Notes under the pieces: model-generated
Told to the model about the DNA's origin: nothing
The model's database searches: none
What the model saw: the letters and a program-made list of their open reading frames with translations, nothing else
Assembly: GCF_041346945.1 (NCBI RefSeq)
Contig: NZ_CP166850.1
Coordinates: 8,602,501 to 8,666,500, forward strand
DNA: 64,000 nt
Reading direction: 5' to 3'
Source: Amycolatopsis sp. cg9
GTDB lineage: Bacteria > Actinomycetota > Actinomycetes > Mycobacteriales > Pseudonocardiaceae
Part shown: positions 2,120-38,950 of the stretch, one piece after another
How positions within the stretch are numbered: the stretch's first letter is position 1
Layout of the letters: each line of letters opens with the position of its first letter
Program-made: the position numbers and the translations under genes

Positions 2120-2134
2120 GCGCGGGGCAGCGCG

Positions 2135-5435: not shown

Positions 5436-5528
5436 GCCGCGCTCACGATGCTCGGCACGTGGTGGAAACCGCATCCGGACCTGCCGGGCCCCGCGATCGG
5501 GAACGGCGCTGACGAGAACGGACGATTC

Positions 5529-6737: not shown

Positions 6738-6758
6738 CCCGGCGCCCGGCAACGGTCT

Positions 6759-6803: not shown

Positions 6804-6873
6804 AGACCTTCGAGCCGTCGGGGCGGCCAGGTCGGGAGGGCGGCTCCGGTCCAGAACCACCGGCCGGCGACGT

Positions 6874-7002: not shown

Positions 7003-7004
7003 AA

Positions 7005-7029
7005 GGTCTTGAATGAGTCATTCGAGACC
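7005..7029. repeat. TGAATGAGTCATTC palindrome overlapping the NRPS A stop codon
   Basis: GGTCTTGAATGAGTCATTCGAGACC is a 25-bp imperfect palindrome. The NRPS A stop codon (7020-7018, TGA) lies in its centre. The repeat therefore supplies the end of the gene and probably the transcript's terminal hairpin. Confidence 0.65.
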
Positions 7030-18504: not shown

Positions 18505-18517
18505 GGGAGGGATCCCT

Positions 18518-22124: not shown

Positions 22125-22319
22125 TCAGACCCCGAGCGCGACGCGCAGGCTCTTCGGGCGGATGTCGGTCCACGTCTCGTCGACCCACGCCACGCACTCC
22201 TCGCGGCTGCCGCTCTTGCCCGCCGGCTGCCAGCCCGCCGGTACCGGCAGCTCGGCCGGCCAGATCGAATACTGCTCCTCGTCGTTGACGACGACCGTGA
22301 AGTCCTTGAACGCGTCCAC
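22125..22319 (-). CDS. MbtH-like protein
   Basis: The protein has 64 aa from GTG 22319, with GGAAAGGAA upstream. It carries the family signature: [45 protein letters not shown] with the conserved Trp residues and S.EEC segment. MbtH proteins bind the A-domain N-terminal subdomain and are needed for its solubility or activity. It lies between NRPS C and the free carrier and probably serves the A domains of NRPS A, B and C. Confidence 0.95.
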
Positions 22320-22334: not shown

Positions 22335-25300
22335 TCAGATCAGCTGACGGTGTCCCGCGACCAGCGCGGCGAGTTCTTCGGCATAAGCGGTCACGTAGGC
22401 CTCGGCGACGTCGTCCGGGACCAGCGACCGGAGGTGGTCCACGGCCAGCAGGATCCGGCCCGACGCCGGGTCCTGCACCAGGGCGACGCCGAGGGCGAAG
22501 TTGGTCGGCTCGTAGCGCATGTCCGGCTCGCAGCCGATCCGGTCGTCGACGATGCTCGTCGCCGAGCCCGCGAGCCGGCCCAGTGCGTGGAACCGCAGGA
22601 ACGCGAAACACGCTTCGAGCCGCGGGCCGGCCATCATCCGGGCCAGCCGGGCGAACGGGACCCGGCGGTGCGGCAGCAGCTCGACCTCGGCCTCGTGCAC
22701 CGCGCGCACGAGATCCGGCTCCGACGCGGTCACCACCAGCGGGACCGTGTTGAGGAACAGCCCGTACGCCTCCGTGCCGCTGCGTTCCTCCAGCCGGCCG
22801 TTCACCGAGAGCCCCGTGGTGACCCGGTCGCGGCCGGTGATCCGGGACAGCGCCCGGACGTGCGCGGCCAGCGCGGCCGCCTTCACCGGGACGCCTGCCG
22901 CGGCCGCGATCGCCTCGAGCTGGGCCGGGGCCTCCGGCAGGACCCGCTCCAGCGTGCGCGGGATCTCCGCCGTCGCCGCCTCGGAGCCGGCACCGGACGA
23001 CCAGAGCGCGCCGTCCGCGTCGCGAAGCCGGGAACGCCAGAACCGCTCGCTCTCCGGCGAAGCCGACGCGGCTCGCTCGGCGGCCACGAAGTCGCGGAAC
23101 GTCGACGCGGGCGGCGGCGCGAGCGGGGTGTCCGGCGACGCGTGCCGCTCCAGGATCTCGGTGAGCAACGAGGTGAAGCTCCAGCCGTCCAGGATCGAGT
23201 GGTGCTCCGCGATGGTCAGCTGGAAGGCGTCGTCGGCGAGCCGTTGCGCGACGACGCGGAACAGCGGCGCGGAACGCAAGTCGAAGCGCATCGCACAGCA
23301 GGCGTCGAAGACCGAAGCGACGGCCGAACGCTGCTCGGCGAAGGGAAGACCGCGCAGGTCCGCAGTGGACACCGGCGCCGGTGCCGAGGCGTGCACGAGC
23401 TGCATGGGCTCGCGGTGGCCGATCACGTCGAACGTCGTCCGCAGCACGGGGTGCCGGGAGATGACGCCGGCGACCGCCGCGTGCAGGGCGTCCTCGTCGA
23501 GGCGCCCGGCGACCCGGTAGCTGTTGACGTTGTGGTAGCCACCGGCGTCGCCGGACAGCTCCATGTGGTAGATCATCCCGAGCTGCATCGCGGCCATCGG
23601 GTAGGCGTCGACGACGTCCGCGGGCAGCTTCGCCAGGTCCTCTTCGGACAGTCCGGCGAACGGCCGCGCGGCCGGGACGTCGACGGCACCCGGCTTCAGC
23701 AGCGGCGCCAGGGCCGCCGGGGTGGGCGCCGCGAACAGGTCCGGCAGCGTGAGCGTCCAGCCGCGGTCCCGCAGCTTGCCCGCCAGGTGCACCGCGCGGA
23801 TGGAGTCGCCGCCGAGGTGGAAGAAGTTGTCGTGCGCGCCCGCCCCGGTGACACCGAGGACGTCGGCGTACAGCTCGGTGAGCAGCCGCTCCCCCGGGGT
23901 GCGCGGCTCGGCGTGCTGCCGCGTCGGGCGGGGCGCGGCGGGTGCCGGCAGGGCCGCCCGGTCCAGCTTGCCGTTCACCGTCACGGGCAGCCGGTCGAGG
24001 ACGGTCACCGTCGCCGGGATCATGTGCTCCGGCAACGACGTGGCCAGGAACGACCGCGCGTCGGCGTACTCCAGGGTTCCGACGACGTAGGCCGCCAGCC
24101 GGTCGTCGTGCACGGTGACCGCGCACGCGCCGACCGCGGGGTGCGTCCCCAGCGCGTGCTCGATCTCGCCGAGCTCGATGCGGAAGCCGCGGACCTTGAC
24201 CTGGCTGTCGCACCGGCCGACGTACTCCAGGCCACCGCCGGCGAGCCGCCGGGCGACGTCGCCGGTGCGGTAGAGCCTCGCTCCCGGGGAAGCCGAGAAC
24301 GGGTCCGGCAGGAACCGCCGCGCGGTGAGCCCCGCTCGCCCCCAGTAGCCGTGGGCGAGCGCGCCGCCGCCGATGTACAGCTCGCCCGGCACGCCCACCG
24401 GGCACGGCCGCAGCCACTCGTCGAGCACGTGGGCGCTCAGGTGCGGCAGCGGCGCGCCGATCAGGCTCCGCTCGAACCCCGCCGGTCCGGTGACGTCGTG
24501 CGTGGTGACGTGCACGGTGGTCTCGGTGATGCCGTACAGGTTGCACAGCGGCGCGGACAGCCCGAGCGCGAACCACCGGCGCACGACCGCCGGGTCCAGC
24601 GCCTCACCGCCGAGCATGACCTGCCGCAGGGCGGGCAACGCGGGCCCGGTGCGGAGGGCGGCTTCGAGCTGGCGCAGCGCCGACGGCGTCTGGCACAGCT
24701 GCGTGACACCCTCCGCCGCGAGCAGCGCGGCGAAGGCCTCCGGCGACCGGCTGGTCAGGTAGGGCACGACGACCAGGCGGCCGCCGTGGTGCAGCGGCCC
24801 CCACAGCTCCCAGACCGTCCAGTCGAAGGCGTAGCTGTGGAACAGCGTCCACACGTCGGTCTCGCGGAACGCGAAGTGCGCGCGCCCGGATTCCATCAGC
24901 CGCCCGGCGTGCTCGTGGGCCACGGCGACGCCCTTGGGCCGGCCCGTCGAGCCGGAGGTGAAGATCAGGTAGGCCAGGTCACCGGGGCGGACCGGTACGC
25001 GCGGCCGGTCCGCGGGGTAGGCCGAGACGTCCTGCCCGACGTCGAACACCGGCCCCGCGGTGTCCTGGTCGGTGACGACCAGCCGCACCCCGGTGTCGCC
25101 GAAGACGAACGCCGCACGGTCGTCCGGGGCGGCCGGGTCCACCGGCACGTAGGCGGCGCCGGCCTTCAGGACGGCCAGGATCGCGGTGACGATCGCCTCG
25201 CTCCGGTCCAGCAGCAGGCCGACCCGGTCGCCGGGGCGGACCCCGGCCGCGATCAGGGCGTGTGCGAGCCGGTTGGCCCGCCGGTCCAGCTCGGCGTAGG

Positions 25301-26654
25301 TCACGCTCTCGCCGTCGAAGGTCACGGCGGGCCGGCCGGGGAACCGGTCCACGGCGTCTTCGAAGGACTCGTGCAGGCACCGGGGCTCGGCGGTGGTGAC
25401 GGAAGCGGGCCACGCCGGCTCCAGCTCGACTCTCCACAGTAGACCGTCCGGTTCGGACAGCACGGCGGCCAGCAGGGTGCGCCACTGCCCGGTCAGCCGG
25501 TCGATCGTCGCGGCGTCGAACAGGCTGGTGCGGTACTCGACCTCCCCGCGCAGCTCGCCGTCGTCGAAGGTCGACCAGGTGAGGTCGAACTTGCTGGTGC
25601 CGTTGTGGTGCACCCGCCGGGTCGCGGTGAGCGGCCCGAACCGCAGCGGCTCGGCCTCCTCCGCGTGCGCCCCGAACACGACCTGCACCAGCGGCGCGTG
25701 CCGGGCCGAGCGCTCGAGGCCCAGCGCGTCGACCACGACGTCGAACGGCACGTCCAGGCAGGCGTAGGCGTCGAACGCGGTGTCGCGCACGTGCGCCACG
25801 AGGTCGCGGAAGCTCGCCGCGCGGTCGACGCGCAGCCGCAGCGGCAGGATGTTGACGAAGTAGCCGATCAGGTCGGCCAGCTCCGGCCGGTCCCGCGTGG
25901 TCACCGGGGTGCCGACGACCAGGTCGGCCGCGCCGGTGCAGCGGTTCAGCAGCGCGGCGAACGCGGCCAGCTGCACGACGAACGGCGTCGCGTCCAGTTC
26001 GGCGGCCAGCGCACCGATCCGCGCGGCCAGGCCGGCCGGGAGCGCGAACTCGCGGGTGTCGCCGTCGAAGTCCTGCCGTGCGGGCGCCTCCCGGTCGGCC
26101 GGCACCTCGAGGCGCGTGGGCGCACCGGCCAGCTGCTCCCGCCAGTACGCCAGCGGTTCGTCGCAGGGCTCGGCTCCGGTCGCGTAGTCGGCGTACTGGG
26201 TGGTCAGCTCGGGCAGCACGGGCGCCCGGCCTTCGACGGCCGCGGTGTAGAGCTCCGCCAGCTCCCGCTCGAACACCCCGGACGACCAGCCGTCCCAGAC
26301 GATGTGGTGCACGACGAGGACCAGTGTCACCGGATCCACCAGGGCCGCCCGCAGCACCGGGCCGGTTTCGAGGTCGAACCCGGTGGTGAGGTCGGGAGCG
26401 CCGCGGTGCAGCGGGATCCGGACGTGGTCGTGGACCGTCTGCAGTGGACCGTCCGGGCCCGCCGAGAACGTCGTGCGCAGGACTTCGTGCCGCCGGACGA
26501 TCCCGTCGATGGCGCCTTCGAGCACGTCCGGGTCGACCGGCCCGTCGAAGGTGAACACCCACGGCACGGTGTAGGCGGCGGAGCCGGGGTTCCAGCGGTC
26601 GAGGAACCACAACCCGCACTGGAGCCCGGAAACCGGGGCGGTGCGGCCGGTCAT
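22335..26654 (-). CDS. NRPS C: C-A-PCP-C
   Basis: The protein has 1439 aa, and ATG 26654 overlaps the NRPS B stop (ATGA). Domains are C1 ~1-425 (HHIVWDGWS), A ~445-900, PCP (LGGDS, Ser951) and a C-terminal condensation domain from ~1010 (DAYPMAAMQLGMIYH, HHSILDGWS). The A domain has YGITETTVHV and hand-read residues DWWCMGLVH. That places it in the Thr-type group (DFWNIGMVH), which also includes related beta-hydroxy or beta-amino residues, but with two unusual positions. The terminal C has no carrier of its own. By gene order it should condense the chain onto the free PCP at 21857-22123. Confidence 0.92.
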   Translation of the reverse strand: MTGRTAPVSGLQCGLWFLDRWNPGSAAYTVPWVFTFDGPVDPDVLEGAIDGIVRRHEVLRTTFSAGPDGPLQTVHDHVRIPLHRGAPDLTTGFDLETGPVLRAALVDPVTLVLVVHHIVWDGWSSGVFERELAELYTAAVEGRAPVLPELTTQYADYATGAEPCDEPLAYWREQLAGAPTRLEVPADREAPARQDFDGDTREFALPAGLAARIGALAAELDATPFVVQLAAFAALLNRCTGAADLVVGTPVTTRDRPELADLIGYFVNILPLRLRVDRAASFRDLVAHVRDTAFDAYACLDVPFDVVVDALGLERSARHAPLVQVVFGAHAEEAEPLRFGPLTATRRVHHNGTSKFDLTWSTFDDGELRGEVEYRTSLFDAATIDRLTGQWRTLLAAVLSEPDGLLWRVELEPAWPASVTTAEPRCLHESFEDAVDRFPGRPAVTFDGESVTYAELDRRANRLAHALIAAGVRPGDRVGLLLDRSEAIVTAILAVLKAGAAYVPVDPAAPDDRAAFVFGDTGVRLVVTDQDTAGPVFDVGQDVSAYPADRPRVPVRPGDLAYLIFTSGSTGRPKGVAVAHEHAGRLMESGRAHFAFRETDVWTLFHSYAFDWTVWELWGPLHHGGRLVVVPYLTSRSPEAFAALLAAEGVTQLCQTPSALRQLEAALRTGPALPALRQVMLGGEALDPAVVRRWFALGLSAPLCNLYGITETTVHVTTHDVTGPAGFERSLIGAPLPHLSAHVLDEWLRPCPVGVPGELYIGGGALAHGYWGRAGLTARRFLPDPFSASPGARLYRTGDVARRLAGGGLEYVGRCDSQVKVRGFRIELGEIEHALGTHPAVGACAVTVHDDRLAAYVVGTLEYADARSFLATSLPEHMIPATVTVLDRLPVTVNGKLDRAALPAPAAPRPTRQHAEPRTPGERLLTELYADVLGVTGAGAHDNFFHLGGDSIRAVHLAGKLRDRGWTLTLPDLFAAPTPAALAPLLKPGAVDVPAARPFAGLSEEDLAKLPADVVDAYPMAAMQLGMIYHMELSGDAGGYHNVNSYRVAGRLDEDALHAAVAGVISRHPVLRTTFDVIGHREPMQLVHASAPAPVSTADLRGLPFAEQRSAVASVFDACCAMRFDLRSAPLFRVVAQRLADDAFQLTIAEHHSILDGWSFTSLLTEILERHASPDTPLAPPPASTFRDFVAAERAASASPESERFWRSRLRDADGALWSSGAGSEAATAEIPRTLERVLPEAPAQLEAIAAAAGVPVKAAALAAHVRALSRITGRDRVTTGLSVNGRLEERSGTEAYGLFLNTVPLVVTASEPDLVRAVHEAEVELLPHRRVPFARLARMMAGPRLEACFAFLRFHALGRLAGSATSIVDDRIGCEPDMRYEPTNFALGVALVQDPASGRILLAVDHLRSLVPDDVAEAYVTAYAEELAALVAGHRQLI

Positions 26655-29600
26655 GCCCGCACCTCCAGCCGCCGGGCCAGCGCACGGACGGTCCGGGAGG
26701 CGAACACCAGCCGCGGCGCGACCCGGGTGCCGGTCTCGGTGGACAGGCGCAGTGCCACGCGGACCGCGGCCAGCGAGTTGCCGCCGAGCCGGAAGAAGCT
26801 GTCGTCGACGCCCACCGCGTCGATCCCGAGCACCTCGGCCCACACGGCCGACACCAGCCGTTCGGCCTCGGTGGCGGCGGGGTCCGCCGGCACCGCGGCC
26901 ACGACGCCGTCCGGGTCGGGCAGCCCGGACCGGTCGAGCTTCCCGTTGGCGGTCAGCGGAAGCGCGTCGAGGGCGGTGACGCTCGCCGGGATCATGTAGT
27001 CCGGCAGCAGCGTGGCGAGGTGGTCGCAGACGTCCTGGTAACCGGGGGCGGCGGCGCGGGCGACGACGTAGGCCGCGAGCCCGTCGCCGTGCGCGACCAC
27101 GGCGCAGTCCCTGACCCCGGCGTGCCGCGCCAGCGCGGCGGCGACTTCGCCGGGCTCGACCCGGAAGCCGCGGATCTTCACCTGGTCGTCGGCGCGGCCG
27201 GTGATGGTGAGCAGGCCGTCCGGGGTGCGGCCGCCGACGTCGCCCGTGCGGTACATCCGCGAGCCCGGCGGGCCGAGCGGGTCGGGCAGGAACCGGTCGG
27301 CGGTCAGGCCCGGCTGCCCGACGTAGCCGAGGGCCAGCCCGGCCCCGGTCGCGTAGAGCTCGCCTTCGGCCGACGGCCGGAAGTGGTCGTCGAGCACCCG
27401 GACGTCCTTGTGCGCGACCGGCACGCCGATGGGGATGGCGGCCGCGGTCACGTCCGCGGCGCCGACGACGTGGCAGGTGGTGAAGCCCATGCTCTCGACC
27501 GGGCCGTAGCCGTTGACGATCCGCACGTGCGGGTAGCGCTCGCGCAGCCGGGCCACGTGGGCGACCGAGGCGCGCTCGCCGCCGGTGAACACCACGCGCA
27601 GGCCGGCGAAGATCGCCGGGAACTCGTCGACGAGGAAGTTGAACAGGGTGGCCGACAGCTGCAGCTGCGTGACGCCGTGCCGGGCGACGAGCGCGGTCAT
27701 CGTCTCCGGGTCCGGGCGCTGGCCGGGGTGCAGCACGCAGGTGCCGCCGAAGAGCAGCGGGCCGTAGACCTCCAGGCCGAAGGCGTCCCAGGACACCGGC
27801 GAGCACTGCAACCACACCTCACCGGGCGCGAAGAGCGCGTAGTCCTGGTCCAGGTAGGTCCCGGCGAGGGCGCGGTGCGACGCCGCCACGCCCTTCGGCC
27901 GGCCGGTGGAGCCGGACGTGAACATCACGCACGCCACCGCGTCGACCTCGACGGCGACGCCGAGGTCGTCCCCGGGGCCGTCGGCGGCCGCGACGAACGC
28001 GCGGTCCACGACCAGCCTCGCCCCGGACGCCGCGATCGCGTCCGCCCGCCGGGCTTCGGGCAGCTCCGGGTCCAGCAGCGTGTAGCCCGCGCCCGCCTTG
28101 AGGACGCCGAGCAGGGCCACGACCAGGTCGGTGTCCCGCTCGATCAGCACGGCGGCGACCGCGCCTTCGGTCACGCCGTGGGCGCGCAGGCGGCGGGCGA
28201 CGCGGTTGGCCCGCGCGTTCAGCTCCGCGTAGCTCAGCTCGTCGTCGCCGGAGACGAGGGCGACGGCGTCCGGGCTCAGCGCGGCCTGCCGCTCGAACAG
28301 CTCGTGCACGGGGAGGACGGCGGTCTCGGTCGCTTCGGGCCGCACGAACTCGTCCGGCTCGGTGACCAGCTCGGTCACCGCCGTCAGCCAGGCTTCGCCC
28401 AGCGCGGTCAGCGTCGCGGCCTCGAACAGGTCGGTGTCGTACTCGATCCGGCCGCCGAAGCCGGTGCCGTCGTCCTCGACCGACCACGACAGGTCGAACC
28501 GGGACAGCTCGTTGACGTGCAGCCGCCGCGAGAGCCGGGCTTCGCCGTAGGGCAGCGGGTCCGGGTCGGCGGTGTGCATCTCGAAGACCAGCTGGAACAA
28601 CGGGTTCCGGTCGCCGGAGCGCTCCCCCAGCACCCGGCCGGTGATCTCCTCCAGCGGTACGTCCTGGTGGCGGTAGCCGTCGAGGGCGACGCCGCGGACG
28701 TGGTCGAGCACGTCCCGCCGGGTCGCCCCGGCCTCGACGCGGAACCGCAGCGGGAGGAGCGTGATGAAGTAGCCGATGAGGGCGTCGAGCTCCGGCCGTT
28801 CGCGGACGCTGACCGGAGTGCCGACGACGAGGTCGGCGGCGCCGCCGGTCCGGTGCACCGCGAGCACCAGCCCGGCCAGCAGCACCATGAACGGAGTCGC
28901 GTCGGCTTCCTGCGCGAATTCGCGGACCGCGGCGGCGAGACCGGCGTCGAGCGCGAAGCGGTGGTAGCCGCACAGGTGCGCGGGTTCGGCGGGCCGCGGG
29001 TGGTCGGGAACGACGGCCGGGCGGTCCGGCAAGCCGCGCAGGTGCTCGGCCCAGAAGCCGAGCTGCCGCTCGGCGATCCCGGTGTCCTGCAACCAGTTCG
29101 CGTAATCGGCGTACTGGACGGCGAGGCCGGGCAGCCGCGGCTCGCGGCCTTCGACGAGCGCGGTGTAGCACTCGCGCAGCTCCCGGTCGAGCACGGCGAG
29201 GGAGCCTTCGTCCCAGACGATGTGGTGGAAGACGAGGACGAGGGTCGCGGTCGCCGCCGACGTCCGGACCAGCCGGGCGCGCAGCAGCGGCCCGGTCGTG
29301 AGGTCGAACGGCGTGCGGGCGTCGGCCGCGATCAGGCCGGCCGGGTCAGCCGCCTCGGTGACCTTGAACGGGACGTCGAGGTGCGGGTGGATCACCTGGC
29401 GCGGCAGGGTTCCGGTGACCTCGAACGTCGTGCGCAGCGCCTCGTGGCGATCGACGACCCGCTGCAGCGCGGCGCCCAGGAGACCGGCGTCGAGCGGGCC
29501 GTCGAGGTCGAACACCCACGGCACGTTGTAGGTCGGCGTGCCCGGCTGCCAGGCGTCCAGCAGCCACAGCCCGCGCTGGAACCGGGAAAGCGGCGCGTCG

Positions 29601-31288
29601 GACGCCGGGGCGCGGACCGGGCCGGGGCGCTCGGCGCCGGCGTTGTCCTGCGTCGCGGCGGCGAAGCGCTCCAGGGTCGGCGCGTCGAAGATCTGGTACG
29701 GCGACACGGGTCCGAACACTTCGAGCACGCGGCCGGCCACCCGGACGGCGGTGAGCGAGTCCCCGCCGAGGTGGAAGAAGTTGTCGTCGAGGCCGACGCG
29801 CTCGACCCCCAGGACGTCCGCCCAGATCGCGGCGAGCAGCTGCTCGGCCGGGGTGCGCGGGGCGCGGTAGCCGGTTCCGGCGTGGGCCGGCTCCGGCAGG
29901 GCGGCGCGGTCGACCTTGCCCGCGGCGGTCAGCGGCAGCTGCGCCAGCGAAGTCAGGCTCGCCGGGATCAGGTGCTCCGGCAGGGACTTCGCCAGGAAGT
30001 CGCGGACTTCCGGGTACTCGAGCGGTTCGGCGGCGACGACGTACGCCGCCAGCCGGGTGCCGTTCGCGGCCTCGTGCGGCACGACCGCGCACGCGGTGAC
30101 CGCGGGGTGCGCGGCCAGCGCGTTCTCGACCTCGCCGGGCTCGACGCGGAAGCCGCGGATCTTCACCTGGTCGTCGGCGCGGCCGAGGAACTCCAGCTCG
30201 CCGCCGCGAGTGCGGCGGGCACGGTCGCCGGTGCGGTACATCCGGGCTCCGGGCTCGGCCGAGAACGGGTCCGCGACGAACCGGGCGGCGGTGCGGCCGC
30301 CGTCGCCGAGGTACCCGGCGGCGAGGAGGGACCCGCCGAGGTACAGCTCGCCCTCGTCGACCGGCCGCAGGTGGTCGTCGAGCAGGTGCGCGACCCGGTC
30401 GCCGACCGGGGTGCCGACGGTGACCGGCCGCCCGGGCCGGACCTCGTGCACGGTCGAGGTGATCACCGTTTCGGTCGGGCCGTAGGCGTTGAACAGCCGG
30501 ACGCCGGTCCGCTCGAGCCAGGTGGCGGCCGCGGCCGGGGAGAGCCGGTCGCTGCCGGAGATCATGGTCCGCAGCGTGGGCGGCACGGCCCGGCCGGCGG
30601 CCACCGACGCGACGAGGTCGTGGAAGTACCCGGCGGCGACGTTGGCGACGGTGACGTGCTCGGCTTCGAGCAGCTGCCAGAACTCTTCGGCGGACCGGAG
30701 CTTGGCTTCGGGGACAACCAGGCAGGCGCCGGCGGTCAGCGCGGTGGTGATCTGCTCGACGGCGACGTCCACAGTGGACCGCGCGAAGTGGAGGACGACG
30801 TCGTCGGAGCGGAGGTCGAAGCGAGCGGAGACGGCTTCGACGTGCGCGGCCAAGGCGCGGTGCCCGACGGCGACGGCCTTCGGCTCGCCCGTGGTGCCCG
30901 AGGTGTGGATGAGGTAGGCGAGCGGTTCGCCGTCGGCCGGTGCCGCGGGCTCACCGCCGCCGGGCCGCACCGCCCCGCCGTCCAGGACGAACCGCGCGCC
31001 GGCCCCCGTCAGCAGGCGCTCGGTGCGTTCGGCCGGCGCCGCCGGGTCCAGGGGCAGGTGCACCCCGCCCGCCCGCCAGACCGCGAGCAGGCCGGTGACC
31101 TGGTCGAACCGGTCTTCACTGCGTACCGCGACCACGTCACCCGGCCGGGCGCCCGCCGCCGTCAGCCTCTCGGCCGTGGTCGCGACCAGCTCCTCGAGCT
31201 CGCCGTAGGTGAGCGTCCGGGCCCCGCACCGCAAGGCCGGGCGGGTGGAATCGATCGTCACGGCCGGTTTTTCGTCCTGCACCGACAT
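26651..31288 (-). CDS. NRPS B: A-PCP-C-A-PCP, initiating synthetase
   Basis: The protein has 1545 aa from ATG 31288, chosen because the protein then opens directly into A-domain core A1. It begins with an A domain and has no starter C domain, so the first residue is not N-acylated by this enzyme. Domains are A1 ~10-480, PCP1 (LGGDS, Ser511), C ~545-970, A2 ~985-1460, PCP2 (LGGNS, Ser1505). Hand-read codes are DVENMSAIT for A1 and DALQFGGGF for A2; neither matches a code I can name safely. The C domain active site reads HHIVWDEGS, so the usual Gly after Asp is Glu. Core A3 of A1 is TSGTTGEPKA. It is translationally coupled to NRPS C. Confidence 0.92.
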   Translation of the reverse strand: MSVQDEKPAVTIDSTRPALRCGARTLTYGELEELVATTAERLTAAGARPGDVVAVRSEDRFDQVTGLLAVWRAGGVHLPLDPAAPAERTERLLTGAGARFVLDGGAVRPGGGEPAAPADGEPLAYLIHTSGTTGEPKAVAVGHRALAAHVEAVSARFDLRSDDVVLHFARSTVDVAVEQITTALTAGACLVVPEAKLRSAEEFWQLLEAEHVTVANVAAGYFHDLVASVAAGRAVPPTLRTMISGSDRLSPAAAATWLERTGVRLFNAYGPTETVITSTVHEVRPGRPVTVGTPVGDRVAHLLDDHLRPVDEGELYLGGSLLAAGYLGDGGRTAARFVADPFSAEPGARMYRTGDRARRTRGGELEFLGRADDQVKIRGFRVEPGEVENALAAHPAVTACAVVPHEAANGTRLAAYVVAAEPLEYPEVRDFLAKSLPEHLIPASLTSLAQLPLTAAGKVDRAALPEPAHAGTGYRAPRTPAEQLLAAIWADVLGVERVGLDDNFFHLGGDSLTAVRVAGRVLEVFGPVSPYQIFDAPTLERFAAATQDNAGAERPGPVRAPASDAPLSRFQRGLWLLDAWQPGTPTYNVPWVFDLDGPLDAGLLGAALQRVVDRHEALRTTFEVTGTLPRQVIHPHLDVPFKVTEAADPAGLIAADARTPFDLTTGPLLRARLVRTSAATATLVLVFHHIVWDEGSLAVLDRELRECYTALVEGREPRLPGLAVQYADYANWLQDTGIAERQLGFWAEHLRGLPDRPAVVPDHPRPAEPAHLCGYHRFALDAGLAAAVREFAQEADATPFMVLLAGLVLAVHRTGGAADLVVGTPVSVRERPELDALIGYFITLLPLRFRVEAGATRRDVLDHVRGVALDGYRHQDVPLEEITGRVLGERSGDRNPLFQLVFEMHTADPDPLPYGEARLSRRLHVNELSRFDLSWSVEDDGTGFGGRIEYDTDLFEAATLTALGEAWLTAVTELVTEPDEFVRPEATETAVLPVHELFERQAALSPDAVALVSGDDELSYAELNARANRVARRLRAHGVTEGAVAAVLIERDTDLVVALLGVLKAGAGYTLLDPELPEARRADAIAASGARLVVDRAFVAAADGPGDDLGVAVEVDAVACVMFTSGSTGRPKGVAASHRALAGTYLDQDYALFAPGEVWLQCSPVSWDAFGLEVYGPLLFGGTCVLHPGQRPDPETMTALVARHGVTQLQLSATLFNFLVDEFPAIFAGLRVVFTGGERASVAHVARLRERYPHVRIVNGYGPVESMGFTTCHVVGAADVTAAAIPIGVPVAHKDVRVLDDHFRPSAEGELYATGAGLALGYVGQPGLTADRFLPDPLGPPGSRMYRTGDVGGRTPDGLLTITGRADDQVKIRGFRVEPGEVAAALARHAGVRDCAVVAHGDGLAAYVVARAAAPGYQDVCDHLATLLPDYMIPASVTALDALPLTANGKLDRSGLPDPDGVVAAVPADPAATEAERLVSAVWAEVLGIDAVGVDDSFFRLGGNSLAAVRVALRLSTETGTRVAPRLVFASRTVRALARRLEVRA

Positions 31289-31367: not shown

Positions 31368-32615
31368 CTAAGCGGTGGGAACGGCTCCGACCGGCAGGTC
31401 GAGCGGCAGTTCCGCGGCGGCAGGAGCGGCAGGCCAGACGTCGTCGGCGGCGACGGCGTCCGGCCGGTACTTGCCCAGCGCGCTGATCAGCAGCCGCGTC
31501 TCCAGCGCCAGCGCCTCGACCAGCCGCACCAGTCCTCCGGCACGGTCTTCGTCGACGGCGACCAGCGCCGCCCGGCCGAGCGCTGCCGCGCGGACGCCGT
31601 GGGCCAGCGCCTTCACCACCCGGGTGCCCTCCCACATGCGCCCGCCCGCCAGCAGGCAGCCGTCCGGGCGGCCGATCCGGCGCAGGCACTCGGCGAGCGG
31701 GAGGCCGACGTGGCCGAGGAAGGCCGTGGGCGCCCAGCCCGTGCCGCCCTCGGCGCCGTCGACGGTGACCGCGTCCGCCCCGGCCGCCCACGCGACCCGG
31801 GCGGCTTCGGCGACGTCCCGGCCCGGCGGCAGCTTCACCCAGACCCGGGCCCGCGGGAAGTTGTTGCGCATCAGGCGGATCTGCTGCCGAAGGATCTCGG
31901 CGGTGAACGTGCCGGGACTGCCCGACCGCAGCTTCCGCTCCCCGCGGCCGAGCGCGGTGAGCGCGTACTGCCCGTCGACCCGGGCCGCCGCGGCCGCGTC
32001 GAGCAGGGTCATCCCGCCGAGTCCGGGCTTGGCGCCCTGCCCCACCTTCAGCTCGAACCCGAGCCGGCCGCCGTCGAGCAGCGCCGACGCGGCCGGGTCG
32101 CTGTAGACGAGGTTCCAGACTTCGGCGTCGGCGTCTTCGGTGCTCTGCTGCACCACGACACCGCCGAGCCCGTCCGGCACCTCCCCGGCGTACGCCCGGA
32201 CGCGGGTGAGCAGGGCGTTCGCGTACCCGTTGACCGGTACGACGTTCTCGCCGAGCACCATCGGGATCCCGAGCCGCCCGGCTTGGCGTGACGCCGCCAT
32301 CGCGAGCTCACCGCCGCCGAGCTGCGTCGACCCGAACGCCGAGAGGAACACCGGCAGCGGCGAGGCGAACCCGCCGATCGCGGTCGCCAGGTCGACGTCG
32401 GAGAACAGCGGTTCGCGGCCCAGCTCGATCAGCTTCTCCAGCCGCAGCGGCACGAACACCGGCGGCACCAGCCGCGCGCGGTCCAGTTCGTCGCCGTCCG
32501 GCGCGACCGCGCCGAACACCTCGCTGCCGTAGGCGGATTCGTCGGGGAACACCGCGGCGGCGCCCCGCGCGGCCCGGTCCCGGACCGCCGCCTCGGGGAA
32601 GCCGGCGGCCTTCAC
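31368..32615 (-). CDS. FMN-dependent glutamate-synthase-like (GltB central/FMN domain) protein
   Basis: The protein has 415 aa. GTG 32615 overlaps the upstream stop (GTGA). It matches the FMN-binding barrel of glutamate synthase: KVGQGAKPGLGG, VWVKLPPGRDVAEAA and VDGAEGGTGWAP correspond to the GltB segments around FMN. It lacks the N-terminal amidotransferase domain with its catalytic Cys, and the 3Fe-4S cysteines are not visible. It is therefore a free FMN oxidoreductase domain. Position in the mutase operon suggests work on the 3-methylaspartate/glutamate branch, perhaps a reductive amination or desaturation. The actual reaction is unknown. Confidence 0.8.
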   Translation of the reverse strand: MKAAGFPEAAVRDRAARGAAAVFPDESAYGSEVFGAVAPDGDELDRARLVPPVFVPLRLEKLIELGREPLFSDVDLATAIGGFASPLPVFLSAFGSTQLGGGELAMAASRQAGRLGIPMVLGENVVPVNGYANALLTRVRAYAGEVPDGLGGVVVQQSTEDADAEVWNLVYSDPAASALLDGGRLGFELKVGQGAKPGLGGMTLLDAAAAARVDGQYALTALGRGERKLRSGSPGTFTAEILRQQIRLMRNNFPRARVWVKLPPGRDVAEAARVAWAAGADAVTVDGAEGGTGWAPTAFLGHVGLPLAECLRRIGRPDGCLLAGGRMWEGTRVVKALAHGVRAAALGRAALVAVDEDRAGGLVRLVEALALETRLLISALGKYRPDAVAADDVWPAAPAAAELPLDLPVGAVPTA

Positions 32616-34870
32616 GGCGCCACCAGCCCGGGGACCTTCGGGTAGGCGTTGACCCGCCACACCGCGTCGAGGCCGGTGAGGAACCGGACCAGCCGTTCCA
32701 GCCCCAGCCCGAAGCCCGCGCTGGCCGGGATGCCGTCGCGGACCATGTCGAGGTACCAGCCGTACTTGGCCGGGTTCTCCCCGGTTTCGCGCATCCGCGT
32801 GACGATCCGCGCGTAGTCGGACTCGCGTTCACTGCCGCTGGCCAGCTCACCGAACCCGCCGGGCGCGAGGAGGTCGAAGTTGCGCAGGACCCCGGGCTCG
32901 CTGGTCGCTTCGCGGTCGTAGAAGCCGCGGGAGCCCTTGGGGTAGTCGTCGACGAAGAACGGCCGCTCGGCGGTCCGGGACAGCAGTTCCTCGCCTGCCC
33001 AGTCGATCTCCGCGTCCGGGCTCTGCGGGTGGCCGAGCTCGTGCAGCCGGGCGACGGCGGCGGCGTGCGTGGTGCGGCCGAACGCCCCGGACAGGACGCC
33101 GGCGAGGTCCGCGAGGTCCCGGCCGAGCCCGGTCAGCTCGCCGGGGACCGTCGCGAGGACGTGCTTCACGACGTGCGTCAGCAGCCGTTCGGCGACGTCC
33201 TGGGCCTGTGCCCGGCTCGCGCCCGCGACCTCGACGTCGATCTGGTGGAACTCGGCGAGGTGCCGCCGCGTCGAGCAGGTTTCCACCGGTTCCGCGCGGA
33301 CGTTCGGCGCGATGTAGAAGATCTTGCCGAAGCCGAGCAGCGACGCCTGCTTGTACAGGATCCCGCTGGTCATCAGCTTGTAGCGGTGGCCGTAGTAGTC
33401 GACGTCGAGCTGCTTCGAGCCGCGGACGCCGGGGTCGGTGACCGGGCCGATCACCGGGGGCAGCAGCTCGGTGAACCCTTCGCCGCCCAGGAATTCCCGC
33501 ACGGCGGCCAGCACCTGGTGCTGGACGCGCAGCGCGGCCCGGGTGACGGGTGAGGCGAGGTGCACGGGCAGCGGCGGTGGCAGCTGCCCATCGGGGGTGT
33601 CGGTCATGGCGCTCCTGTCGGCTCCGGCCCCGGCCCGGCCGGGCGGGGGCGTGTCGAACTTCCGTTCCACGTGCGAAAGCGCGGCCAGCAGCCCGGCCGA
33701 GCCGGTCCGGTGCGGCCGGGTACCGCGCGGCGGCGGGCCGATCGGCAGCCCGCCGGTGTCCGCCCACTGCAGGCGGCCGTCGCCGTCGAGGTAGCTGCGC
33801 ACCCGGCCGGCGTTGTCCGGGTGCAGGCAGTACGGGATGTCGAGCAGGCCGCGGGCGAACGCCTCCGGCAGCGAACCGGTCGGGTCCTCGTCCAGGTCCA
33901 GCACGGCTTCGACCAGCGCGGCCGCCTCGGCGTGGATGCCGGTGTCCTCGGCGCCGGTCGCGGCCGGGGCCGCGGCGGCGGCGCGCGCGGCGAGTTCGAG
34001 CGCCTCGACGTTCTCCGCGACGGTCGGGATCCGGTGGGCTTCCGCGGCCGTCTTGACGATCAGCCGGGCCGCGCCGGAGCGCACCGCGAGCCGCGCCGCG
34101 GAGGTCAGCAGCCGGGCGGCCCCGGCGCGCGTCCGCGGGAAGACACCCATGTAGGCGTAGACCACGACGTGCCACTCGACGCCGGGCAGGTACCGCGCGG
34201 CCAGCAGCCGCAACGCCCGGACGGCTTCCTCGTCCTGCGCCGGGTCCGTCTGCTGCGCGTAGCTCAGCGAGACGCTGCGGATGCCCTGCCGGGCGAAGAA
34301 GATCGCTTCGAGGACGCTGATCGCGACCAGCATCCCCGGCGGGCAGAGCTGCCCGAGCATGCAGCCGCCGAAGGTTTCCACGTGCGCCGAGCCGCTCGCC
34401 GCGGTCAGCCGGGCGCAGGCGTCGGTCCAGTGCCGCACCGCCGTCCGCAACGGGGTGCGGCTGTAGGGCAGGCAGTAGGACACCGGCCCGCCCTCGGTCG
34501 CGTCCAGCCCGGCGGCGACCAGGGTGGCGACGATGTCCTGCGGGCGCGCCGAACCGTGCCGCACCTGGACCGGGAAGTCCGGCCCGAGCACGCCGTCCAG
34601 GACCCCGCGGGTCACCTCCGGGCCGTGCGTGACGAGCGGGAAGCCGTTGAGCGGCGCGCCTTCGGCCAGGGCACGGGCCGCCGTGACGAGGTCGCCGACG
34701 CGGGTGTAGCTGTCGATGGTCAGGGTGCCCACCGTGGTGGCCGCGGCGTCGCGGGTGCGGCGCAGGCCGGCCCGCATGTCCGCCGGCGCCGGGAAGCCCA
34801 TCCGCGGCTGGACGACCAGCCGGCCCGCCGCGTGCTGCCGGGCGACGAACGTCCCGAACGGCACGCTCAC
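32612..34870 (-). CDS. glmE: Fusion: glutamate (methylaspartate) mutase large subunit + AsnRS-like synthetase core
   Basis: The protein has 752 aa, and GTG 34870 overlaps the small-subunit stop. Residues ~1-415 are methylaspartate mutase E: TLTIDSYTRVGD, LNGFPLVTHGPE, QVRHGSARP, GGPVSYCLPYSRTPLR. Residues ~422-752 are a class II aminoacyl-tRNA-synthetase core of the AspRS/AsnRS type, with motif 2 region VRAEP...RRHLAEFHQIDVEV, FFVDDYPKGSRGFYDR, and motif 3 AGFGLGLERLVRFL. No OB-fold anticodon domain is present, so it is not a tRNA synthetase. It resembles archaeal AsnA-like asparagine synthetase. No stop separates the two parts, though an internal ATG (33607) has an AGGAG upstream and could also yield the synthetase alone. 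Proposed role: glutamate to 3-methylaspartate, then amidation to 3-methylasparagine or loading onto a carrier. Confidence 0.88.
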   Translation of the reverse strand: MSVPFGTFVARQHAAGRLVVQPRMGFPAPADMRAGLRRTRDAAATTVGTLTIDSYTRVGDLVTAARALAEGAPLNGFPLVTHGPEVTRGVLDGVLGPDFPVQVRHGSARPQDIVATLVAAGLDATEGGPVSYCLPYSRTPLRTAVRHWTDACARLTAASGSAHVETFGGCMLGQLCPPGMLVAISVLEAIFFARQGIRSVSLSYAQQTDPAQDEEAVRALRLLAARYLPGVEWHVVVYAYMGVFPRTRAGAARLLTSAARLAVRSGAARLIVKTAAEAHRIPTVAENVEALELAARAAAAAPAATGAEDTGIHAEAAALVEAVLDLDEDPTGSLPEAFARGLLDIPYCLHPDNAGRVRSYLDGDGRLQWADTGGLPIGPPPRGTRPHRTGSAGLLAALSHVERKFDTPPPGRAGAGADRSAMTDTPDGQLPPPLPVHLASPVTRAALRVQHQVLAAVREFLGGEGFTELLPPVIGPVTDPGVRGSKQLDVDYYGHRYKLMTSGILYKQASLLGFGKIFYIAPNVRAEPVETCSTRRHLAEFHQIDVEVAGASRAQAQDVAERLLTHVVKHVLATVPGELTGLGRDLADLAGVLSGAFGRTTHAAAVARLHELGHPQSPDAEIDWAGEELLSRTAERPFFVDDYPKGSRGFYDREATSEPGVLRNFDLLAPGGFGELASGSERESDYARIVTRMRETGENPAKYGWYLDMVRDGIPASAGFGLGLERLVRFLTGLDAVWRVNAYPKVPGLVAP

Positions 34871-35289
34871 GACGCCACCCGCACCGGCAGCCCGGCCAGG
34901 TAGCGGCGGAAGGCGGTGAGGTCGCCGTCGCCGAAGACGCGGTCGAAGCCCGCCGCCCGCAGCCGGGTCTCCGCCTCGGCGCCGCGGCTGCCGTCGACGC
35001 CCAGTTTGCCGCCGATCACCAGCGCCGCGCCCGGGAGCGCGGCACGCAGGCGCGGGGCCAGGCGGAGGCCGTCGGTGGCGCCGTGGCCGTTGACCGTGCT
35101 GAGCACCACCAGGTCCGGGTCGAGCCGCCGGCATTCGGCGACGGCGAGCTCGTCCGGCACGCACGCGCCGAGGTTCGTCACCGCGAAGCCGAGCTCTTCC
35201 AGCAGCAGCTGCAGGTAGACGAGGTTCCAGGTGTGCGCGTCGGAGGCCGTGCTGCTGACCACCGCGACCGGGCGAAGTTCCGAAGTCAC
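34867..35289 (-). CDS. glmS: Glutamate mutase small, B12-binding subunit
   Basis: The protein has 140 aa. It has the cobalamin-binding Rossmann-like fold with SDAHTWN (His19 as the lower axial ligand), then STVNGHG and GGKLG in the later loops. The family motif is DxHxxG; here the last position is Asn. It forms the adenosylcobalamin enzyme with the mutase large subunit encoded next, interconverting L-glutamate and (2S,3S)-3-methylaspartate. In actinomycete clusters (friulimicin, malacidin, vicenistatin types) this pair supplies 3-methylaspartate. GTG 35289 lies 6 nt after a -10-like TAGGTT, so the mRNA is probably leaderless. Confidence 0.9.
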   Translation of the reverse strand: MTSELRPVAVVSSTASDAHTWNLVYLQLLLEELGFAVTNLGACVPDELAVAECRRLDPDLVVLSTVNGHGATDGLRLAPRLRAALPGAALVIGGKLGVDGSRGAEAETRLRAAGFDRVFGDGDLTAFRRYLAGLPVRVAS

Positions 35290-35426: not shown

Positions 35427-35494
35427 CGGGGCACGAGCGAACCCGGGTGGCTCCACTGTGGACGCCCGCGGCGGGTGCGGCGAAAGGACAAACG

Positions 35495-36517
35495 ATGGGT
35501 TCCCTGGGCGTCAAAGAGTTCCTGCCGCTCGACTGGGTGGTCGAGCCCGGCGAGCCGGCGAGCGCCGAAGTGCGCGAGCTGACCGACCTCGACGCCGCCG
35601 TGGCGTGGCTCGCCGAGGCGGCGCCGTCGCTGCGGGCGGCGTTGCACCGCCACGGTGCGGTGCACCTGCGCGGCCTGCCGATCGGATGCGTCGAGGACTT
35701 CGGGCGCGTGCGCGACACGCTGATGCCGGCCCGCACGCCGTACCGCGAGAAGGCGACCCCGCGCAGCGACTTCGGCAACGGCGTCTTCTCCTCCACCGAC
35801 CTCCCGGCCGCGCAGCGGATCCGGATGCACAACGAGAACAGCTACACGCTCACCTTCCCCGGGCTGCTGATGTTCTCCTGCCTGATCGCGCCGGCCGAGG
35901 GCGGGGCCACACCGGTCGCCGACGTCCGGAAGGTGCTGCGCGCGCTGCCGGCGGAGCTCGTGGCGAAGGTCCGCGCGCACGGCTGGCTGCTCGACCGCAG
36001 CTACTCCGAGCACATCTCGACCGACTGGCGGACCGCGTTCGCCGCGGCCACCCGCGAGGACGTCGAACGCTACTGCGCCGAGAACCTGATCTCGGCCCGC
36101 TGGCAGGCGGACGGGCACCTGCGGACCAGCCAGCTGCGGCCCGGGATCATCAGCCACCCGGTCACCGGCGAGGAGGTCTGGTTCAACCACCTGGCCTTCT
36201 GGAACGAGTGGTCGCTCGACGAAGAGCTGCGCGAGACGCTGATCGACGAGTTCGGCCGCGACGACCTCCCGTTCAACACCGCCATCGGCGACGGCAGCCC
36301 GCTGACCCGCGAGGAGATGGCCGCGCTCGACGCCGCCTACGACGCCGCGACCGTGCGCAAGCAGTGGCGGCCGGGCGACCTGCTGCTCGTCGACAACATC
36401 CTGAACACCCACGGCCGCGACCCGTTCCGCGGGGACCGCAAGATCGTCGTCGCGATGGGCGAACCCGTCGACGTGGCCGGCTGCGCGCCGACCGTCGCGC
36501 CGGCCGGAGCCCGCTGA
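35495..36517 (+). CDS. SyrP-like Fe(II)/2-oxoglutarate-dependent amino acid beta-hydroxylase (TauD/TfdA family)
   Basis: The protein has 340 aa. ATG 35495 has AAAGGA 7 nt upstream. The iron triad is HNE (His112, Glu114) and His306 in THGRDPF, with a 2-oxoglutarate-binding Arg just after (GDRKI). Segments TPYREKATPRS, MHNENSYTLTFP and APAEGGATPVADVR match the SyrP/KtzO/KtzP group, which hydroxylates carrier-bound Asp or Glu at the beta carbon. The stop overlaps the next start (TGATG), and the next gene is an A-T didomain with a Gln-like code. The likely substrate is therefore Gln or Glu bound to that carrier. Confidence 0.87.
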   Translation: MGSLGVKEFLPLDWVVEPGEPASAEVRELTDLDAAVAWLAEAAPSLRAALHRHGAVHLRGLPIGCVEDFGRVRDTLMPARTPYREKATPRSDFGNGVFSSTDLPAAQRIRMHNENSYTLTFPGLLMFSCLIAPAEGGATPVADVRKVLRALPAELVAKVRAHGWLLDRSYSEHISTDWRTAFAAATREDVERYCAENLISARWQADGHLRTSQLRPGIISHPVTGEEVWFNHLAFWNEWSLDEELRETLIDEFGRDDLPFNTAIGDGSPLTREEMAALDAAYDAATVRKQWRPGDLLLVDNILNTHGRDPFRGDRKIVVAMGEPVDVAGCAPTVAPAGAR

Positions 36518-38169
36518 TGGCCGGCCTGCTCCCCCGCTTCCGAGACGCGGTCCGCCGCGCGCCCGAGCGGATCGCCGTGCGGGACACCGCGTCGGCGCTG
36601 ACCTTCGCCGAGCTCGACCGCCGGACCGCGGCGCTGGCCGGCGCCCTGCGCGCGCACGGCGTCGGCCGCGGCGACCGCGTCGGGGTCGCCCTCGGCCGGG
36701 GTACCGACCTGGTGGTGGCCCTGCTCGCCGTCTGGCGCACCGGCGCCGCCTACGTCCCCCTCGACCCGGCCTACCCGGCCGACCGGCTGGCTTTCATGGC
36801 CGGTGACGCGGCGATCCGGGCCCTGGTGTCGGCGACGACGCCGGGCTGGCTCCCGGCGGGCGCGGTCGTCGTCGCGCCCGATGCCGACGGGCCTTCGGCA
36901 GCCGACACCGCCGGATCGGACCTCGATCCCGCCTACGTGATCTACACGTCCGGCTCGACCGGCCGTCCCAAGGGCGTCCCGGCGCACCACGGCGCGGTGG
37001 CCGCGCTCGTCGCCGCGCTGGAGCAGGCGGGCATGTACGCGGGCGAACCCCGGGTCGTCGCGTGGAACGCCAGCGTGTCCTTCGACGCCTCCGTGCAGCA
37101 GTGGGCCCGCGTCTGCCGCGGCGACACCGTCGTGGTCCTGGACGACGCGCACCGCACCGACCCGGCCGCGCTCGTCGCGTGGCTGGCCGACTGCGGGGTC
37201 ACCGACCTCGACCTGACGCCGTCGCACTGGACGGCGCTGCGGGAGCACCTGCTCGACCGGCCGCTGCGGCTGTTCGTCGGCGGGGAGCCGATCCCGGAAC
37301 CGATGTGGCGGGAACTGGCCGAAAGCCGGCTGGAGGCGCTGAACCTCTACGGCCCGACCGAGTCCACTGTGGACGCGACGGCGACGTGGATCACCGGCCC
37401 GGGCGGACCGCACATCGGCGTGCCGCTGGCCGGGATCCGGGCGCACGTCCTCGACGACGCCCTGCGGCCCGCGCCGTCGGGCGAGCTCTACCTGTCCGGG
37501 CCGCGGCTTTCGGCCGGCTACCTCGGCCGGCCGGGCCTGACCGCCGAGCGGTTCGTCCCCGACCCCTTCGGCCCGCCGGGTTCGCGGCGGTACCGGACCG
37601 GGGACGAAGTCCGCTGGAGCGACGGCGGCACGCTGGAGTTCACCGGGCGGCTCGACCGCCAGGTGAAGCTGCGCGGCCACCGGATCGAGCTCGGCGAGAT
37701 CGAGGCGGTGCTGCGCGAGGCACCCGGCGTCGCCGCCGCGGCGGTCGTGGTGCGCGACGACCGGCTGATCGCCTACCACGTCGGCGGCGAGGACCCGCGC
37801 GCGACGGCGGAAAGGAAACTGCCGGAACACATGGTCCCGGCCGCGTTCGTCCGGCTCGAGTCGCTCCCGCGCACGCCGAACGGCAAGCTCGACACCGCCG
37901 CGCTGCCCGAACCGGAAACCGCGGGCGGCCCGGCCCCGAGCGGCCCGGTCGAGGAGCTGATCGCGGACGTCTGGGCGGAGGTCCTGGGCCGCGACGGCGT
38001 CGGCGCCGACGACGACTTCTTCGCCCTCGGCGGGCATTCCCTGGTCGCCCTGCGCGTGGTCGCCCGGCTGAAGAAGAACTTCGGCGTCCCGGTGTCCACC
38101 AAGGACGTCTACCGGCACCCCCGGCTGGCCGACCTCGCCAAGCACGTCTCGGCGCTCGCCACGAGCTGA
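36517..38169 (+). CDS. Stand-alone A-PCP didomain, predicted glutamine-activating
   Basis: The protein has 550 aa. The A domain (~1-455) has [26 protein letters not shown] and NGKLDT; the PCP has LGGHS with Ser508. By hand alignment to PheA the pocket reads DAQDFGLVD, close to the known Gln code DAQDLGVVD (Glu: DAKDLGVVD). It is coupled to the hydroxylase upstream and lies 13 nt before a thioesterase. This A-T/oxygenase/TE trio parallels NikP1-NikQ-NikP2-type off-line amino acid modification. The hydroxylated residue could be freed, or passed to one of the two A-less carriers of the main line. No C domain is present. Confidence 0.9.
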   Translation: MAGLLPRFRDAVRRAPERIAVRDTASALTFAELDRRTAALAGALRAHGVGRGDRVGVALGRGTDLVVALLAVWRTGAAYVPLDPAYPADRLAFMAGDAAIRALVSATTPGWLPAGAVVVAPDADGPSAADTAGSDLDPAYVIYTSGSTGRPKGVPAHHGAVAALVAALEQAGMYAGEPRVVAWNASVSFDASVQQWARVCRGDTVVVLDDAHRTDPAALVAWLADCGVTDLDLTPSHWTALREHLLDRPLRLFVGGEPIPEPMWRELAESRLEALNLYGPTESTVDATATWITGPGGPHIGVPLAGIRAHVLDDALRPAPSGELYLSGPRLSAGYLGRPGLTAERFVPDPFGPPGSRRYRTGDEVRWSDGGTLEFTGRLDRQVKLRGHRIELGEIEAVLREAPGVAAAAVVVRDDRLIAYHVGGEDPRATAERKLPEHMVPAAFVRLESLPRTPNGKLDTAALPEPETAGGPAPSGPVEELIADVWAEVLGRDGVGADDDFFALGGHSLVALRVVARLKKNFGVPVSTKDVYRHPRLADLAKHVSALATS

Positions 38170-38182
38170 AAGGAGCACGGCG

Positions 38183-38950
38183 ATGGACAACCTCCGCAAC
38201 ACCGTGGTGCGCGCCAAACCCAACCCGGGGGCGGCGAAGACGCTGGTGTGCCTCGGCTTCTGCGGCGGCGGCTCCGGCCCGTACCTGCCGTGGGCCGACG
38301 TGCTGCCGCCGGACGTCGAGCTGGTGACGATCTGCTACCCCGGCCGCGACGGCCGGTTCCTCGACGACTTCGCCCCGGACTGGGACGCGCTCGCCGAAGA
38401 CGCGACCGACGCGGTGGCGGCGGCCGCGCGGCCGCGGCCGTACCTGTTGTTCGGGCACAGCATGGGCGGCTGGATGGCGTTCGAGGTGGCGCACCGGCTG
38501 CGCCTGCGGGGCGGCCCGCTGCCGGAGACGCTGATCGTGTCGTCGGCGAACGCGCCGAGCCGCGGGCTCACCCCGCGGGACATGTTCCCGGCCCAGCAGG
38601 ACACCGACGAGCAGCTGGTGACGTGGATGCGCACCAACGGCCTGCTGCCCGGCTACGTGCTCGACGACCCGGAGCTCAGCGAGATGGCCCTGGAGCTCAT
38701 GCGGGCCGACATCCGGGTCCGCGACACGTTCACGGCCCCCGAAGGCGCGACGGCGAGCGTCCCGCTGGAGGTGCTGACCGGCGCCGACGACGACGTGATC
38801 GTCCCGGACGCGGCCGAGCAGTGGCGGGCGCTGGCCGGGAACGGCTACCGGCACGTCGAACTCCCGGGCGGGCACTTCTACACCCCGGAGATCTGGCGCA
38901 CCCTGCCGGCCCGGATCCCGGCCCTGGCCCCGCTCCCGGCGGCCGGCTGA
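38183..38950 (+). CDS. Type II thioesterase of the A-PCP/hydroxylase operon
   Basis: The protein has 255 aa. ATG 38183 follows AAAGGAG. It shows the thioesterase II pattern: FCGGGSGPY oxyanion loop, LLFGHSMGGWMAFE (Ser93), TGADDDVIV for the acid, and GGHFYTPE (His231). It is the last gene of the plus-strand operon and is followed by a perfect hairpin. It probably hydrolyses the modified aminoacyl group off the A-PCP didomain, or edits that carrier. A transfer role to another carrier cannot be excluded. Confidence 0.88.
   Translation: MDNLRNTVVRAKPNPGAAKTLVCLGFCGGGSGPYLPWADVLPPDVELVTICYPGRDGRFLDDFAPDWDALAEDATDAVAAAARPRPYLLFGHSMGGWMAFEVAHRLRLRGGPLPETLIVSSANAPSRGLTPRDMFPAQQDTDEQLVTWMRTNGLLPGYVLDDPELSEMALELMRADIRVRDTFTAPEGATASVPLEVLTGADDDVIVPDAAEQWRALAGNGYRHVELPGGHFYTPEIWRTLPARIPALAPLPAAG

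Follow-up and report, generated by a model that had tools for sequence, protein, structure and literature searches.

A glutamate mutase-ligase fusion in Amycolatopsis sp. cg9 within a probable gene set for an amide of 3-methylaspartate

How the large (E) subunit of glutamate mutase and a ligase resembling asparaginyl-tRNA synthetase (AsnRS) came to share one reading frame, and what the resulting protein makes, is the question raised by a gene in an antibiotic-type cluster of the soil bacterium Amycolatopsis sp. cg9. The gene lies in the window, as we call the whole stretch of 64,000 nucleotides that was analysed (contig NZ_CP166850.1, positions 8,602,501 to 8,666,500), between a gene for the S subunit of the mutase and one for a small flavin mononucleotide (FMN) protein, and next to nonribosomal peptide synthetase (NRPS) genes (Table 1). 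In our reading, to which we give a probability of about 0.72, the window holds a gene set of the streptolydigin type for an amide of 3-methylaspartate, with two of the four enzymes fused and the amide made before the NRPS is loaded. The first impression of a one-of-a-kind fusion enzyme has to be corrected, as the fusion is real but has evolved repeatedly, and the two enzymes that it joins are known, as is their pathway; it is a variant rather than a new kind.

Architecture and origin of the fusion

The gene runs on the minus strand from a GTG start at 34870 to a stop at 32612 and encodes 752 residues without internal stops. In the Pfam scan, Met_asp_mut_E (PF06368) covered residues 6-378 (E 3.1e-85; 286.7 bits, above the cut-off of 26.6) and tRNA-synt_2 (PF00152; the core of class II D, K and N synthetases) covered residues 438-747 (E 2.6e-52) of the translation P0001, which begins one residue early, so that true residue numbers are one lower. 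No third family, anticodon-binding domain included, was found in the protein at E 0.001. The predicted structure consists of two confident halves and a linker (410-427) with a predicted local distance difference test score (pLDDT) below 50, the predicted template modelling score (pTM) being 0.59. Both the in-frame joining of mutase E to an AsnRS-like core and the lack of an anticodon domain in the synthetase half, as described in the initial annotation, were therefore borne out. The same annotation had warned of a sequencing error hiding a stop near 33610-33660. Since an orthologue in a different genome (G042), a single open match with 93% identity, is likewise fused, a sequencing error in this stretch, be it a frameshift or a concealed stop, was rejected.

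A search for the same architecture elsewhere, which had been proposed together with the claim, showed that it is not unique. Both PF06368 and PF00152 are present in 65 of the 120 protein-database matches listed, three of the 65 being fragments, and some of these proteins are already named for both enzymes. In literature searches covering open papers, on the other hand, no publication on a mutase-ligase fusion was found. The statement that no described fusion was known agrees with these searches, but not with sequence databases, in which fused proteins are common.

In regard to the origin of the fusion, 80 genomes of the window's genus were surveyed, 51 of which gave matches at E ≤ 1e-80 (90 rows in all). 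The survey gave 59 mutase places, 38 ligase places and 37 mutase-ligase pairs within 3 kb. Two of the 37 pairs, those of the window and of G042, are fused without a stop, and in five further pairs the same frame is interrupted by one stop. One of these five belongs to another copy of the set (L035; 60% identity), which the genome of the window itself carries beside another NRPS and which has an in-frame TGA between mutase and ligase. The nearest relatives of the fusion, 80-91% identical (G067, G062 and G008), are two separate genes, and in these split relatives (L038-L040) the mutase stop lies within an ATGA overlap. The window and the G042 locus (L037) are longer by one base in front of the ATG, and this brings both parts into one frame. 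Such close split relatives, shorter by one base at this site, argue for a young fusion, which appears to have arisen recently from the ATGA overlap by a one-base change in length.

Loci for wider comparison were chosen in three ways: from the window's genus, by the ligase (best 80 of 224 confirmed stretches, plus two plasmids) and by the FMN protein (51 of 343 genomes of the genus of G102). Fused pairs made up 11 of 79 among the loci chosen by the ligase (L057-L136) and 2 of 48 among those chosen by the FMN protein (L144-L194), with contigs common to both groups, such as L070 and L167, still counted in each. On a FastTree phylogeny with local supports, built from 191 ligase domains (72 fused and 119 split, after removal of duplicates identical in sequence and state), the fused label requires 23 state changes, at least 12 of them forced by starred branches, and a single origin of the fusion was rejected. 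Judging by these sequences, mutase-ligase pairs are usually two genes, and the fused and split states appear to alternate repeatedly on the ligase tree.

The internal ATG at 33607 preceded by AGGAG, from which a free synthetase had been suggested to start, is indeed present. All 15 fused loci (14 contigs, as L070 and L167 are one) have an in-frame ATG at the junction together with a sequence like GGAG, compared with 33 of 844 control windows of equal size taken elsewhere in the same frames. Similarly, a Met lies no more than 45 residues before the junction in 43 of the 47 fused proteins in which the junction could be placed by pattern, out of 63 with the window included; the other 16 were excluded. 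A free ligase is probably made alongside the fusion protein, while the conserved internal start is an opportunity and not proof of use, because a young fusion would inherit the site anyway.

Relation to streptolydigin and function of the enzymes

Separate enzymes of these kinds are already known from streptolydigin, and by this analogy the function encoded in the window would be close to a known one. Extracts of PMC5357945 state that slgE1-slgE2-slgE3 supply 3-methylaspartate in streptolydigin biosynthesis, describe SlgE3 as a ferredoxin-dependent glutamate synthase, and place the action of SlgZ, an AsnRS-like protein, and of the methyltransferase SlgM in the tetramic acid; the title of a paper cited there speaks of 3-methylaspartate tailoring. 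We infer that one of our loci (L190, genome G603) is the streptolydigin locus of Streptomyces lydicus. A piece of SlgN1, the sole named slg sequence used for assignments in this locus, matches there at 97.6% across 206 residues, and homologues of all four window proteins (best stretch 60% for mutase S, 62% for mutase E, 65% for the ligase and 63% for the FMN protein) would be SlgE1, SlgE2, SlgZ and SlgE3. Ligase and FMN protein lie directly beside SlgN1. Unlike in the window, mutase and ligase are separate, and the mutase pair is encoded on the other strand at a distance of about 4-5 kb from ligase and FMN protein.

The mutase half, when aligned to glutamate mutase 6h9e, conserves R66, R100, R149, E171, Y177 and Y181, which we take to be the substrate-binding residues, so that the arginine claw and the E171/Y177/Y181 sites match in position those of the epsilon subunit of glutamate mutase (1cb7, 6h9e). 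The S subunit gene lies upstream on the same strand, its stop overlapping the fusion start as GTGA. Its product scores under the cut-offs of the NCBIfam MutS equivalogs and has a cobalamin motif reading DAHTWN; of the DxHxxG motif of mutase S proteins, D and H are conserved and G is replaced by N. A MutS-MutE pair expected to yield 3-methylaspartate is also a feature of the vicenistatin-type macrolactam mutases, presumably of the VinH/VinI kind. At 22 places in the genus, a ligase and an FMN protein are both missing within 3 kb of the mutase (E 1e-80), in which these lone mutases differ from the window's set; several are in macrolactam loci, as judged by eye. The third mutase pair of the window's own genome (L036), too weak a match to be counted among the 22, is likewise without ligase and FMN protein, and stands beside an adenylation (A) domain coded DLTKMGHIG, which we take to be Asp-like.

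For the ligase half, two readings had been proposed, a 3-methylasparagine synthetase and an amino acid:carrier-protein ligase, and the evidence favours the former. This half scores 438.5 bits against the NCBIfam model NF005052 "asparagine synthetase A" (PRK06462 kind), above the cut-off of 368, which was exceeded by two matches in a search of 396 genomes across the phylum, too sparse a yield to be of use; in addition, it has a streptolydigin counterpart in SlgZ. An enzyme of the E. coli AsnA type was rejected, PF03590, presumably the family of that enzyme, being absent from the Pfam scan at E 0.001. The motif TSGILYKQ follows the typical family form TS(G/A)ILYKQ, with T81, I84, K87 and Q88 invariant in 35 of 35 sequences. 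In alignments with solved structures, the same motif reads QSAQLYLE and QSGQLYAE in AsnRS (1x54 and 5zg8), QSPQLYKE in AspRS (1wyd) and HSMILHKQ in archaeal AsnA (1nnh and 3p8t). The first Gln of the synthetase motif binds the alpha-amino group, while the Lys binds the side-chain carboxylate. By alignment, the window ligase has lost this Gln of the tRNA synthetases, as AsnA has, which suggests AsnA-like binding, and has retained the Lys common to AspRS and AsnA, which points to an Asp-like substrate. The archaeal AsnA structures share with it a class II core without anticodon domain and the K-Q, FYDRE and SG-ERE motifs; extracts of PMC3532385 describe archaeal AsnA and AspRS as holding aspartate through two arginines. 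The best reading of the ligase is that it probably forms the beta-amide of 3-methylaspartate, 3-methylasparagine, with the beta-carboxylate as the presumed site of adenylation.

The class II AsnRS/AspRS core, together with AsnRS 1x54 as the best single solved match by sequence, could also indicate a tRNA synthetase paralogue serving tRNA-dependent chemistry or self-resistance. Considering that the QSxQ motif is lost, that the Pfam scan found no anticodon domain and that the ligase adjoins the FMN protein at all 38 of its places in the genus, this origin of the activity is hardly credible.

The adjoining NRPS provides further evidence. SlgN1 is the best solved-structure match of its second A domain (523 bits), and the pocket DALQFGGGF differs by one change in nine from DALQIGGGF in L190. 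A check for carrier and A-domain motifs was made in 18 seemingly NRPS-poor loci. Neither motif was found in the 15-21 kb covered in 11 of them (L049, L064, L071, L076, L078, L093, L101, L153, L166, L170 and L178); of the other seven, L079 and L099 have weak carrier-like strings only and five have an NRPS. The sets without carrier or A-domain motif suggest a free amino acid as the product. According to the second reading, the ligase would instead adenylate the alpha-carboxylate and load 3-methylaspartate onto a free carrier, and the window does contain a free carrier (21857-22123) and a stand-alone A domain gene (36517-38169). This is improbable, since an SlgN1-like A domain is already there, most of the loci examined have neither motif, and both the score against the asparagine synthetase model and the loss of the QSxQ Gln speak against it.

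We propose the following route. Using adenosylcobalamin, MutS and the mutase half would convert L-glutamate to (2S,3S)-3-methylaspartate. The ligase half would bind this product and adenylate its beta-carboxylate with ATP, and the attack of ammonia on the adenylate would give free 3-methylasparagine, the FMN protein acting together with the ligase step. The SlgN1-like A domain would then load the resulting unit onto the NRPS. The fusion, which a one-base change in length would have created, would probably yield both fused and free ligase.

Several points weigh against this route. Of 48 positions separating the two AsnRS from the two archaeal AsnA, the window is AsnA-like at 15, AsnRS-like at 17 and neither at 16, and at the 28 of these that are family-invariant the corresponding numbers are 11, 8 and 9. 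Unlike archaeal AsnA, the window ligase is as near to AsnRS as to AsnA by such class-specific positions, and its expected substrate is 3-methylated. This even score qualifies the synthetase reading: it suggests that the ligase family is a third branch, overall neither AsnA nor AsnRS, and leaves the beta-carboxylate as the presumed site. The mutase half, unlike the glutamate mutase epsilon subunit, is fused to a ligase and falls below the cut-off of the TIGR01503 equivalog (160.2 against 390.1), for which reason it is filed by sequence only as PF06368 kin of SlgE2. Plain asparagine would not require a dedicated ligase, and a different product may be made. Many Streptomyces sets adjoin other A-domain codes (DAYYWGSFA, DAFYWGSFA), so that the SlgN1 kind is not universal. 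One genome (G059) has ligase and FMN protein but no mutase match genome-wide at E 1e-20, which indicates that the ligase-FMN pair can serve another substrate. Finally, the substrate of SlgN1 is listed as (2S,3S)-beta-methyl-L-Asp in extracts of PMC11253843, the acid and not the amide, and with nearly the same pocket in the window, amidation may follow loading in NRPS clusters. The ligase would in that case act on 3-methylaspartate only once it is held by the NRPS carrier, for which the close match of the window's A domain speaks as well. We consider this unlikely in view of those sets that have no carrier or A-domain motif close by, and because archaeal AsnA-type enzymes work on free aspartate.

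The FMN protein and its tie to the ligase

The start of the FMN-protein gene overlaps the ligase stop. The set is complete, with both mutase subunits, ligase and FMN protein, in 144 of 163 loci (window included, repeats kept), the remainder being 12 with the mutase pair alone, four with ligase and FMN protein alone, two without the S subunit and one without the ligase. As many of these loci were picked by ligase or FMN protein, the genus survey is the fair test of association. There, an FMN protein lies within 3 kb of the ligase at 38 of 38 places and a ligase within 3 kb of the FMN protein equally at 38 of 38, compared with 0 of 22 places of lone mutases. Adjoining ligase and FMN protein occur in 33 of the 80 genomes, with a mutase alongside at 37 of the 38 places. 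Across the genus, it is thus the ligase and not the mutase that the FMN protein tracks. In five loci the two are 1.5-2.5 kb apart. Against the tie counts G720, a genome in 520 contigs, in which the FMN protein adjoins the mutase and the ligase is on a separate contig.

This distribution bears on the possibility that the FMN protein is a glutamate synthase feeding the mutase and a chance neighbour of the ligase. A 3Fe-4S cysteine cluster and a glutaminase domain are hallmarks of ferredoxin-dependent glutamate synthases. The cysteine pattern C-x4-6-C-x3-5-C was found in none of 34 FMN proteins (384-456 residues long), and the Pfam scan gave no glutaminase domain in that of the window; in two fold comparisons of the model of this protein, glutamate synthases were missing among the 50 matches listed for each, which excludes nothing. 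Although the statement on SlgE3 in the extracts of PMC5357945, the PF01645 match and the arrangement in G720 speak for glutamate supply, the lack of this cysteine pattern and of a glutaminase domain, the placement beside ligases rather than lone mutases and the presence of the FMN protein in G059 make the published role of the SlgE3 kind doubtful. The accepted assignment thereby becomes testable, namely whether such a protein feeds the mutase with glutamate or serves the ligase.

More tentatively, with the odds somewhat against it, ligase and FMN protein could form a two-protein amide-making unit independent of the mutase, in which the FMN barrel delivers ammonia or alters the ligase product (e.g., its C2/C3 stereochemistry), the SlgE3 kind not being a glutamate synthase. 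Such a unit could have been recruited for 3-methylaspartate or, in G059, for another Asp-like substrate, and the repeated fusion would mark channelling from the mutase to the unit. Adjacent genes for ligase and FMN protein could serve as a portable marker for clusters incorporating a 3-methylaspartate-derived amide.

In G059 (L195, 9281-18223), ligase and FMN protein stand beside a nitric-oxide-synthase domain, a GntD/VioC-like hydroxylase, an MppQ/GntC-like pyridoxal phosphate enzyme and an NRPS.

Neighbouring genes and related loci

Table 1. Features of the window in and around the fusion gene (positions within the window)
Feature	Position	Strand	Basis
MbtH-like protein	22125..22319	-	PF03621, E 2.4e-22
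Next NRPS, A-domain code DWWCMGLVH	22335..26654	-	code order also found in other loci, among them S. virginiae L136
NRPS, two A domains (DVENIGAIT, DALQFGGGF)	26651..31288	-	gene call, codes
Stretch with SlgN1-like A domain, which probably loads what the set makes	26807..28486	-	4gr5 as best match among solved structures, E 8.8e-156
Small FMN-barrel protein of glutamate-synthase type, probable SlgE3 counterpart	31368..32615	-	PF01645
AsnRS/archaeal-AsnA-like ligase half of the fusion, without anticodon domain	32612..33607	-	PF00152, NF005052, motif TSGILYKQ
Internal ATG (33607-33605) with AGGAG (33616-33612), probable start of a free ligase	33605..33616	-	sequence
Mutase E half of the fusion, residues 1-415	33626..34870	-	PF06368
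Glutamate mutase S subunit, cobalamin-binding	34867..35289	-	PF02310 (B12-binding), E 7.9e-14

The three A-domain codes DVENIGAIT, DALQFGGGF and DWWCMGLVH (window 22335-31288, minus strand) recur almost unchanged and identically arranged, as a shared peptide core, in several other loci, among them those of S. virginiae (L136), Kitasatospora purpeofusca (L127), S. omiyaensis (L128) and S. termitum (L135).

On the plus strand of the window (35447-38950), a trio of genes encodes a TauD oxygenase, a stand-alone A domain (code DAQDFGLVD, presumably Gln-like) and a type II thioesterase, which looks like a maker of a hydroxylated amino acid. The same trio stands beside the set in L037-L040, in Lentzea (L068, L073, L107 and L111) and, as judged by eye, in L183.

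Among the loci without carrier or A-domain motif, the one viewed closely (L049, G014, 1-19572) has the set beside ATP-grasp ligases, a NodU-like carbamoyltransferase, a protein like methionyl-tRNA synthetase, a cupin (recognized by eye) and a histamine-N-monooxygenase-like enzyme, and looks like a cluster for an N-N bond (hydrazine) without NRPS. On a linear Streptomyces plasmid of 432 kb (L056), a second protein related to aminoacyl-tRNA ligases is encoded near the set (7095-8153).

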